This document shows, one piece after another, positions 12,432-34,487 of a stretch of DNA of 64,000 nucleotides. The translations under genes and the position numbers were made by a program. Position 1 is the stretch's first letter. Each line of letters starts with the position of its first letter. The notes beneath the pieces were generated by a model. The model did no database searches, was not told where the DNA came from, and worked only from the letters and a program-made list of their open reading frames with translations. The DNA lies in the NCBI GenBank assembly GCA_937997485.1, contig CALKTH010000004.1, positions 1 through 64,000 on the forward strand, given 5' to 3'. This DNA is from an uncultured Acidimicrobiales bacterium. Lineage in GTDB: Bacteria > Actinomycetota > Acidimicrobiia > Acidimicrobiales > SZUA-35.

Positions 12432-12474
12432 GTCGGCTCCGCTAGCTTTGCCGAACGGAGATGAAGGGGCTTTT

Positions 12475-31416: not shown

Positions 31417-32700
31417 TCAGCCCCATGGCACTCCAAGCCGTTCGCAGACCCGGCGACCGGACGCAATGCCGTCCTCGTGAAAGCCGTAGGACCAATAGGC
31501 GCCGCAAAAGTGCGTGCGGTTTGCACCGTCGATGTCGGCGAATCTCGCTTGGGCGGCGATCGCTGGACCATCGAAGACCGGATGCGCGTAGCGGTACCGG
31601 CCGAGGACCTGAGCCGGATCGATGCGGTCATCCGAATTGAGACTCACGAGATAGCGGCGGGAACCAGGCAAGCGCTGCAGATCGGTCATGTCGTACGTCA
31701 GCGTGGCGCGACCCTCACCGGCTGGTCGGTCGTAGTTCCAGGCTGACCAGGCCGAGCGCACCGGCGAAAGGACGGAGGTGTCGGTGTGCAAGGTCGCGTC
31801 GTTGGGCTGATAGCGAATCGCTCCAAGGACCTCCTTCTCGGCGGGCGAGGCATCCTCCAGCATCCCCAGAGCTTGATCCGAGTGGCAAGCGAGAATCACG
31901 CGATCGAACGTCTCGGTTGTTGCCGAACCGTGTGTGGTGAAGTCGATGCGAACGTCGGCATCGCTTCGGACGATCGATGTGACGGGAGAGCTGAGCCGGA
32001 CCTCCCCTGGGAACCTGTCGATCAGTGCATCGACATAGGTGCGACTGCCGCCGGTGACGGTTCGCCATTGCGGCCGATTGCCGACACCCAAGAGACCATG
32101 GTTCGACAGGAAACGCAGCAGGCTGATCAGTGGGAATGCATCGAACGTGGCCGGATCAGCCGACCACACCGAGGCGCCCATCGGAATCAGATGCAGGTCG
32201 ATGAAGGCTCGGGAGTAGCGGCCTTCCCGAAGAAAGTCGCCCAGACTCTGGTCGTCGAGCCGATTGCGAGCGCTGTCGTCGGCGGCGAGCAGCTTGTTCG
32301 CCGCTCGATAGAAGCGTGCGATGTCAATGAGCATGCGCCACATCTCCGGGCGCACGATGTTGCGGCGGTCGCCGAAGAGCGTGGCCAGACTGGTGGCCCG
32401 ATAGGTGAAGGGGGCGCCGCTGCGTTGACGATCGGTGACACCGAAGCTCATTTCTGTGTCCTGCACCGGAACATCAAGTTCGTCGAACAGGCGCACCAGG
32501 TTCGGGTAGTTGCGGTCGTTGTGGACGATGAACCCAGTGTCGATCGCTAGTGACCCAGCGAGTGGATCCTCTACCTGCACGGTGTTTGCGTGTCCACCAA
32601 GGCGCTCGTCGGCCTCGAAGAGCACGACGTCGTGATGAGGGCCCAGCACGTGGGCACAGGTGAGACCGGCAATGCCGGAGCCAATGATGGCGATGCGCAT
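31417..32700 (-). CDS. FAD-dependent oxidoreductase of the amine-oxidase/desaturase type
   Basis: A 427-residue flavoprotein. The amino end IAIIGSGIAGLTCAHVL is the FAD Rossmann motif, followed by EADERLGGHANTV and DTGFIVHNDRNYPNL, characteristic of the group that pairs with DUF1365. The carboxyl end FCGAYWSYGFHEDGIASG is the second FAD contact. The cytosolic enzyme probably oxidises or desaturates a lipid-linked substrate before or after methylation by the downstream CFA-type enzyme. It is first in the operon; 19 nt separate it from DUF1365. Confidence 0.88.
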   Translation of the reverse strand: MRIAIIGSGIAGLTCAHVLGPHHDVVLFEADERLGGHANTVQVEDPLAGSLAIDTGFIVHNDRNYPNLVRLFDELDVPVQDTEMSFGVTDRQRSGAPFTYRATSLATLFGDRRNIVRPEMWRMLIDIARFYRAANKLLAADDSARNRLDDQSLGDFLREGRYSRAFIDLHLIPMGASVWSADPATFDAFPLISLLRFLSNHGLLGVGNRPQWRTVTGGSRTYVDALIDRFPGEVRLSSPVTSIVRSDADVRIDFTTHGSATTETFDRVILACHSDQALGMLEDASPAEKEVLGAIRYQPNDATLHTDTSVLSPVRSAWSAWNYDRPAGEGRATLTYDMTDLQRLPGSRRYLVSLNSDDRIDPAQVLGRYRYAHPVFDGPAIAAQARFADIDGANRTHFCGAYWSYGFHEDGIASGRRVCERLGVPWG

Positions 32701-32857
32701 GAATGGTGTTTCGTGGCAGAGGGGCGGGAGGGATGCACCGAGTGTGCGGCTCTATCCCACCACGGTCGGACTGCGAACGTGGCTCCCTCCCCGGATGTGT
32801 CCCCGCTCGGGGATGACGGCGACTCCCACCGCATCGGACTTCGCGCCGCCCCAACCG

Positions 32858-32942
32858 CTCGTGACCCCCGTGTTCTCGTGGCACCGTTACTTGCCGCCAG
32901 AGCGACAAGTAACGGTGCCACCAGAACGTGGGAGTCAACGAG
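32858..32942. repeat. Long near-perfect inverted repeat (hairpin element)
   Basis: Two arms of about 36 nt, at 32858-32893 and 32906-32942, are complementary with few mismatches around a 12-nt loop. The inner 15 bp, GGCACCGTTACTTG-type on the left and its complement on the right, are perfect. It lies between divergent promoters, so it is not a terminator of a flanking gene. A smaller related pair, GACTCCCAC at 32821 and GTGGGAGTC at 32928, adds to the symmetry. It could be a REP/MITE-like element. Confidence 0.8.
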
Positions 32943-33062
32943 GGCCTGGGGTGTGGTGTGGGTGTGGTGTGGAGACGAAAGACGAGAAGAGGGGAAGAAC
33001 CAAGGAAAAGCGAGGTGTGACGACAGAACGGCCGGTCCGGCTCTGCACTGGTGTGTGGCCCG

Positions 33063-33074: not shown

Positions 33075-34487
33075 GTGGCTCTTCCCACCGTGATCGCCGT
33101 TCAGCCAGACTCACCAGCCGCCGCGGCTGGTGTGCTCGTTGGCGACGTCCTGCGCATGGTCAATGGTGAGCAGCCCCGAGACGTCATCCAGTATCAGCTG
33201 CTGGTCGACGAAGCCGAGGTGACGCTCGAGATCGAGCGGAGCGGGCTCGAGTACACGGTCGACATCTCGAAGAGTGAAGGAGCGAACCTCGGCATCGAGG
33301 TGCAGTCGTCGCTCTTCGACCAGGTACGAACCTGCGACAACCACTGCTCCTTCTGCTTCATCTATCAGTTGCCGGAGGGCATGCGGAAGAGCCTGTACCT
33401 CAAGGACGACGATTTCCGACTGTCCTTCCTCTACGGCAACTTCACCACGCTCACCCGCTTCACCGAGGCCGATCTCGAGCGTGTGATCACCGAAGGTCTT
33501 TCACCGCTGTACGTGAGCATTCATGCCACCGATCCCGAGTTGCGGAACCACATGTTGCGCAATCGACGCGGTGCCACCAGTTTGCGCTGGCTCCGAGCGT
33601 TGCTCGACCACGGCGTCGAGGTTCATGGCCAGGTGGTCGTGTGTCCCGGAGTCAACGACGGGGCAGCGCTCGACCACACCCTGGCCGATGTTCTGGCCGA
33701 GTATCCCGAGTTGGCCTCCGTGGCCATCGTTCCACTAGGTGTCAGCGACCACTCGGACGAGCCTGAAATGCGGCCCCACACCGTCGAAGAGGCCCGAGCA
33801 GTTGTCGACATCGTCGAGCGGTGGCAGGCGACCTTCGCCGAACTTCTCGGCCACCGCCTCGTGTTCGCTGCCGACGAGTACTACCTGCTCGCGGAGCGGC
33901 CGTTTCCGGTTCCCGACACGTACGAAGGATTCCCGATGCACGAAGACGGCATCGGAATGGCCCGAACGTTCGAGCTCGAGTTCAGCGGGCAGGTGGAGAG
34001 CGCGACCGGCACGCAATCTGGCTTCTTCGCCTGGGTCGATGGCGCACCAGCCGAGGGCTATCGGGCCCCTCGCCTGGCCGCTTCATCGTCGACAGCCGAG
34101 GACGGATCGCCTCTTCTCCAGATCCGCCCCTCTGCGAGTGCGCCCATCGGCGTGATCACCAGCGAGTACGGGGCGAAGATCCTCGGTCCGCTCCTGGCCG
34201 AGACCGGTCGCTCCGACATCCGTCTCGTCGTGATCGACAACCAGTTCTTTGGCGGCAACATCGCCGTGACCGGCCTGATGGTCGGTACTGACATTGCCCG
34301 GGTGCTCGCCAACGAGCCCGCAGGCCACCGCTACCTCCTTCCCGACGTCTGCCTCTCCGGCGGTACCTTCCTCGACGGCACGTCCGTCGAGGATCTGCCT
34401 CGTCCGGTCGAAATCGTTGCCACCGACGGCATCGCCCTCCGTGAGGCCCTCGGCCTCTCCACATCTTCAGATCTGGTATCCGCATGA
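33075..34487 (+). CDS. DUF512 radical-SAM-like protein with PDZ domain
   Basis: A 470-residue protein. Residues 3-60 resemble a PDZ domain (VIAVQPDSPAAAAGVLVGDVL). Next is the cysteine motif CDNHCSFCF near 88-96, a C-x3-C-x2-C cluster expected to bind [4Fe-4S] and SAM. The long carboxyl half is the DUF512 domain (GTQSGFFAWVDG, LVVIDNQFFGGNIAVTGLM, LPDVCLSGGTFLDG). The reaction is unknown. It overlaps der by 4 nt, a pairing seen in many Gram-positive genomes, which hints at ribosome-related work. Confidence 0.85.
   Translation: MALPTVIAVQPDSPAAAAGVLVGDVLRMVNGEQPRDVIQYQLLVDEAEVTLEIERSGLEYTVDISKSEGANLGIEVQSSLFDQVRTCDNHCSFCFIYQLPEGMRKSLYLKDDDFRLSFLYGNFTTLTRFTEADLERVITEGLSPLYVSIHATDPELRNHMLRNRRGATSLRWLRALLDHGVEVHGQVVVCPGVNDGAALDHTLADVLAEYPELASVAIVPLGVSDHSDEPEMRPHTVEEARAVVDIVERWQATFAELLGHRLVFAADEYYLLAERPFPVPDTYEGFPMHEDGIGMARTFELEFSGQVESATGTQSGFFAWVDGAPAEGYRAPRLAASSSTAEDGSPLLQIRPSASAPIGVITSEYGAKILGPLLAETGRSDIRLVVIDNQFFGGNIAVTGLMVGTDIARVLANEPAGHRYLLPDVCLSGGTFLDGTSVEDLPRPVEIVATDGIALREALGLSTSSDLVSA

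Follow-up and report, generated by a model that had tools for sequence, protein, structure and literature searches.

A long hairpin between divergent genes of an Acidimicrobiales bacterium: a likely member of a dispersed, REP-like palindromic repeat family

The closest described systems are the REPs. According to the excerpted text of PMC3733652, most of these belong to one of two tag classes, and a single mobilising enzyme is known for them. The GTAG class has stems of 5–13 bp and the CGTC class, for which no transposase is known, stems of 8–9 bp; REPs adjoin convergent genes at their 3′ ends, and REP dimers are mostly head-to-head (PMC3733652). Predicted REP counts for an Acidimicrobium are given in PMC12306157, the excerpted text of which describes no family such as the one reported here, and no description of this family was found in open-licence full text.

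The window analysed here is a stretch of 64,000 nt, in which the hairpin and its two gene neighbours are arranged as follows.

31417–32700, minus strand: left neighbour gene, FAD-dependent amine oxidase-like, starting 177 nt left of the core.
32858–32877, no strand assigned: left outer arm, locus-specific and C-rich, complementary to 32922–32942.
32878–32921, minus strand: family core, an imperfect palindrome with a 4-nt loop, one of 48 copies in the genome.
32922–32942, no strand assigned: right outer arm, locus-specific and G-rich.
33075–34487, plus strand: right neighbour gene, PDZ/radical SAM/DUF512, starting 153 nt right of the core.

Examination of the window confirmed the inverted repeat at 32858–32942 and the divergent neighbours described in the initial annotation, with arms at 32862–32897 and 32902–32937 (36 nt, 86% complementary, 4 nt apart), and the shift to G/T-rich and then purine-rich sequence was also seen, at about 32948–33015. 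The 12-nt loop proposed there corresponds to the stretch between CTTG and CAAG, but an additional CGC/GCG pairing reduces it to 4 nt, and the perfect inner stem comprises 16 bp rather than 15 (GTGGCACCGTTACTTG/CAAGTAACGGTGCCAC). The predicted RNA fold of 32840–32960 had a free energy of −82.5 kcal/mol (z −9.98), which none of 200 shuffles equalled, and in a mismatch-tolerant scan of 464 kb of the same genome the window hairpin ranked top of 15 long hairpins, scoring 23.5 with the next at 16.5; one shuffled window gave no hairpin. Between 32650 and 33150, a sigma-70 scan yielded no promoter-like site and no terminator composed of a hairpin and a T-tract was found, while Rfam matched only rRNA and a tRNA in the window and nothing at the hairpin.

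The core of this hairpin is dispersed in its own genome, as had been expected of a REP/MITE-like candidate, and its copy number rules out a single-copy regulatory hairpin. A search with the 91-bp element gave 86 strand-wise matches and 55 candidates, 40 of which were scored, and 48 copies of the 44-bp core were collected from fetched DNA of this genome, a count that includes the copy in L048 and leaves out one in L023 split by an IS30-family element. As the assembly (93% complete) is in 158 contigs, copies at contig breaks may be missed. The half-arm GTGGCACCGTTNNTTGTCGC had 46 occurrences in this genome, split evenly between the strands (23 each), and was found neither in 60 relatives nor in a reversed control. 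The core, GTGGCACCGTTACTTGTCGC-TCTG-GCG(A/T)CA(A/C)(G/T)TAACGGTGCCAC, is conserved over its whole length among these copies, which adjoin unrelated genes, and copies can be oriented because variation is greater in one arm than in the other; no covariation was detected within this family. The family edge lies approximately 3 to 5 bp outside the core, giving a repeat of about 50 bp with edges included, beyond which there is no positional homology; a longer element with homologous flanks was rejected since flank alignments were no better than those of shuffled flanks. The window copy accordingly has only the inner 44 bp in common with the others, its outer arms being locus-specific. Most copies do not have the TTC end found in the sister families described below; in the window copy, GTTCT was seen by eye two bases further out.

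At eight loci, two copies stand 61–63 bp apart, with spacers of 17–19 nt, and in all eight of these doublets both copies have the same, head-to-tail orientation. The spacers are mostly unrelated, except in L018, where the spacer recurs after the second copy. Cores differed at a mean of 3.1 sites within doublets versus 6.4 between loci (none of 20,000 permutations was as low), and as cores are thus more alike within pairs than between loci, doublets probably arise by local duplication or conversion. In L023 (1501–2771) the IS30-family element lies between two half copies and seems to have inserted into a copy rather than to be a parent element. Judged by eye, L023 has the left flank of L004 and the right flank of L025, which makes an assembly chimera at this contig end possible.

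Placement relative to genes was assessed with the calls of a simple self-trained gene finder. The copies are mainly extragenic, 5 of 47 falling in predicted genes, two of which end at the core. The 36 occupied gaps comprised 17 convergent, 15 co-directional and four divergent ones, the window gap among the last, versus 8, 34 and 16, respectively, of 58 empty gaps of at least 40 bp in the same sequence; convergent gaps were thereby enriched (Fisher p = 6e-4) and divergent ones depleted (p = 0.07). For 40 copies, a stop codon directed at the copy lay no more than 400 nt away, the median distance being 33 nt, and T-tracts (five or more T in 8) were present at 2 of 96 strand-ends of copies. The view that the hairpin is sited where no terminator is needed thus holds for the window copy but is atypical of the family, most copies of which lie at gene 3′ ends. 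In L020 (1501–1544) and L029 (1505–1548) the stop codon of a gene lies inside the repeat, which supplies the C-terminus of the protein.

Of 32 single copies, 29 had a left flank in which C outnumbered G, and 29 had a right flank in which G outnumbered C. This switch is centred on the hairpin in every gene context (e.g. 32780–33020 in the window), fades over about 100 bp and recurs in sister families (22 and 23 of 25; 23 and 24 of 28, the two sets overlapping), and was near zero in 172 element-free gaps. It may reflect a target preference, or possibly C-rich Rho-type leaders on both strands. General complementarity of the flanks was rejected, since the score of own versus mixed flanks was matched in 2059 of 5000 permutations; individual values at or under 5% were obtained for 4 of 32 copies including the window copy, whose outer arms were more complementary than any of 62 flank pairs mixed from other copies.

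Beyond this genome, a covariance model gave weak matches in 5 of 147 relatives, four of them hairpins of the same build with other arms and one, in G012, unconvincing. The sister families have the frame TGGCACC-N28-GGTGCCA in common, usually within TTCTGG-N36-CCAGAA. Searches with a free gap of 16–36 nt and, over 397 genomes of the order, with the gap fixed at 28 nt found four or more copies in only nine genomes, in scattered families (G000, 41; G017, 32; G046, 19; G092, 11; G140, 11; G041, 6; G050, 5; G105, 4; G060, 4), the reversed control giving at most 2 per genome. Seven more genomes had a single copy, poorly paired inside in six of them (4–8 of 12) and fully paired in G002, and none was found in G001, the sole congener of the own genome that was compared, or in G009. 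With the gap left free at 32–40 nt, TTCTGG…CCAGAA copies measured 48 nt in 24 of 28 cases and 47 nt in four. The TTC/GAA end, although no part of the first search pattern, was carried by 17 and 18 of 26 frames; six chance-like frames all lacked it. A named-genome scan returned four lone matches, none with a hairpin; viral scans returned no match to the sister ends and one to the own pattern, which by eye is coding and has no palindrome.

Across these families the inner arms vary from genome to genome, with pairing maintained by compensatory change, which was strong. In the inner 12 pairs of 40 chosen frames, 157 two-sided cells were counted versus 45 in shuffles, and this count, the cells paired, the pair types and the covariation score were each reached by none of 500 shuffles; the number of pairs with two-sided change was not above that of shuffles (222 of 500 reached it). 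The seven outer pairs are invariant by search design and carry no covariation information. Some G017 copies keep the ends yet pair poorly inside (4 and 6 of 12), which counts against a strict hairpin requirement.

At one sister-family site in G050, the TTCTGGCACC hairpin directly follows a gene, and the same place in G105, a congener with 84% identity across 1.1 kb of alignment, carries a perfect 22-bp hairpin of unrelated sequence, itself repeated in G105. Designation of this site as convergent is unsure, resting on stop codons and one gene-call run, another run having missed the left-pointing neighbour. At a second site, the G017 hairpin is absent in the congener G009 (70% identity). Clean empty sites were found in none of the congeners compared, which at 70–84% identity are too distant to show an insertion event. 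The initial annotation had named lack of conservation at orthologous sites among the findings that would refute it; such lack was indeed observed at these two sites, but a mobile repeat predicts the same. At the window site, synteny is broken in G001 and the upstream neighbour differs. Upstream of the DUF512 gene of G001 (L167, reverse complement of about 1125–1480), about three tandem units of about 115 bp, full of small palindromes, were seen by eye.

The Y1_Tnp family is present in 36 of 148 genomes, but in only one of the nine rich genomes, four of which are 70–86% complete. The only Y1 transposase-like protein of the own genome (L041, 2622–3590; 322 aa, with a weak DnaA-like C-terminal match) scored 48.7 bits versus a REP-transposase cut-off of 80, and no copy of the repeat lies in the 7 kb around its gene. 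These findings make the usual REP enzyme unlikely. An autonomous parent element was likewise rejected, as no recurrent transposase was found in 72 neighbour proteins, judged from the 25 most frequent of 109 families. The genes enclosed by copies some 0.8 and 1.1 kb apart look ordinary. Target-site duplication gave no signal, either in the own family (1.94 versus 1.81 for mixed flanks, sd 0.29) or in the sister families (0.64 versus 0.87).

Compared with GTAG REPs and their RAYT enzymes as excerpted in PMC3733652, the repeat is alike in being a short extragenic palindrome with species-specific arms, many copies, dimers and a preference for 3′ ends and convergent gaps. It differs in having no GTAG tag (within 10 nt of 1 of 48 copies versus 4.8 expected from shuffling), in its stem of about 20 bp versus 5–13 bp (PMC3733652), and in that the RAYT family is found in one of nine rich genomes and the own Y1 gene is not flanked by repeats. 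With CGTC REPs it has in common, in the same excerpts, loops of 4–5 nt, the placement and the want of a known dedicated transposase, whereas CGTC occurs near its ends at about chance frequency (9 of 48 versus 6.8 in shuffles), and its stem is longer than the 8–9 bp of that class; its doublets are all head-to-tail (8 of 8), unlike the mostly head-to-head dimers of REPs (PMC3733652). Like a MITE, the repeat is non-coding and dispersed with inverted (palindromic) ends, but it is much shorter, the entire element is one hairpin, and neither a target-duplication signal nor a parent was found. Intrinsic bidirectional terminators resemble it as GC-rich hairpins between convergent genes, but the repeat has hardly any T-tracts, consists of one sequence genome-wide and occupies other placements as well. 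As the placement agrees while tags, stem length and dimer orientation do not, we regard it as REP-like and in neither tagged class. The want of either tag, the longer, near-fixed stems, the head-to-tail doublets and an enzyme family that is mostly missing raise the question of what copies the repeat.

The 48 dispersed copies, the fixed frame, the paired sister families, the different repeated hairpin found in an orthologous gap of a congener, the 3′-end preference and the absence from congeners lead us to consider it likely that the window hairpin is a copy of a lineage-specific, non-coding, REP-like palindromic repeat that spreads in trans and persists near stop codons. From such sequence comparisons the family is probably mobile. 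Copies would spread as DNA hairpins, handled in trans by a putative recombinase or transposase that might read the stem base (TTCTGG/TGGCACC). They would persist mainly beside stop codons, a position that spares both genes and promoters, and may in addition contribute to defining transcript 3′ ends. The window copy would then be a rare survivor between divergent genes, and a regulatory role for it finds no support in the evidence. Against this reading count the failure to find a clean empty site, a target duplication or an enzyme, the poorly paired G017 copies and the lack of the TTC end in most copies of the own family.

The main rival, which is compatible with mobility, is a selected role at 3′ ends: the hairpins would be bidirectional modules that either halt polymerase with no U-tract or undergo cleavage or trimming (by RNase III, or by Rho and an exonuclease), forming the 3′ ends of both convergent transcripts and being selected for that, with any family serving. 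The stop codons pointing at 40 copies from a median of 33 nt and the enrichment of convergent gaps agree with this, as do the orthologous convergent gap that retains a long hairpin while its sequence changes and the flanks, since on either strand the sequence upstream of the hairpin is rich in C and poor in G, as is that of rut-like leaders. However, only 17 convergent gaps were found to use the repeat in a genome of 4.9 Mb, and all 19 convergent gaps of at least 60 bp in the 464-kb background do without it; T-tracts are confined to 2 of 96 strand-ends, four of the 36 gaps with copies, among them that of the window hairpin, are divergent, termination does not need near-identical copies, and the family is absent from congeners. 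We hold this explanation to be unlikely as the primary one.

A binding site of fixed geometry, for a nucleoid protein, gyrase or a regulator, appears more improbable still. Two TGGCACC half-sites would together span 42 bp, equivalent to about four helical turns, and doublets would be spaced at 62 bp, or about six turns, and the nearly constant frame length although the gap was left free, the 61–63-bp spacing and uniform orientation of the eight doublets, and the G017 copies that keep their ends without inner pairing would all suit such a site; compensatory pairing of the inner arms across families is not needed by a protein reading two half-sites, and the conservation of the core end to end within the genome and the sporadic presence in the order also speak against it. 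Least credible of all, and hardly to be expected, is that the window copy acts as a structured small RNA, one of the candidates of the initial annotation, or as a cis-regulator of the two divergent genes, for the very stable fold that favours it is set against the negative Rfam and promoter scans and the recurrence of the same core beside unrelated genes. The small-RNA candidate was dropped on these grounds and for want of covariation within the family, and neither an ordinary intrinsic terminator, T-tracts being rare, nor a conserved small RNA or riboswitch, Rfam and covariation being negative, was supported.

Only tentatively can the REP-like reading be widened to an undescribed superfamily of palindromic cassettes, TTCTGG-N36-CCAGAA, of 47–48 bp with a 21–22-bp stem and a tetraloop, an extension that we judge doubtful. 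Its spread through genomes of the order would be independent of Y1/RAYT enzymes. A single machinery would read the stem base, which is invariant, and the inner arms would meanwhile diversify through compensatory changes; at gene ends, one cassette would take the place of another, all being interchangeable bidirectional 3′-end modules. The nine carrier genomes form a ready set for an enzyme search by gene co-occurrence, and the exchange of one repeated hairpin for another at an orthologous gene gap allows a test of whether selfish hairpins turn into gene-end signals.

In the G105 stretches L205–L224, which were picked partly for known matches and so do not reflect the average hairpin density of the genome, 30 long hairpins were counted in 212 kb, forming several families by eye. 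Some share CGTTCTGG ends (TGGCACC, TGGTCC and TGGCAGCC types) and others have unrelated ends (GTCCCGAGTACATAG, GAACTTGCGTACGAATCGCGC, CGAAGTGTGCGGAGTTGGGGC). In the own genome, two hairpins of otherwise unrelated sequence, at 1810–1845 of the window and at 12463–12498 of L172, have the ends CGAAGGGG…CCCCTTCG in common.
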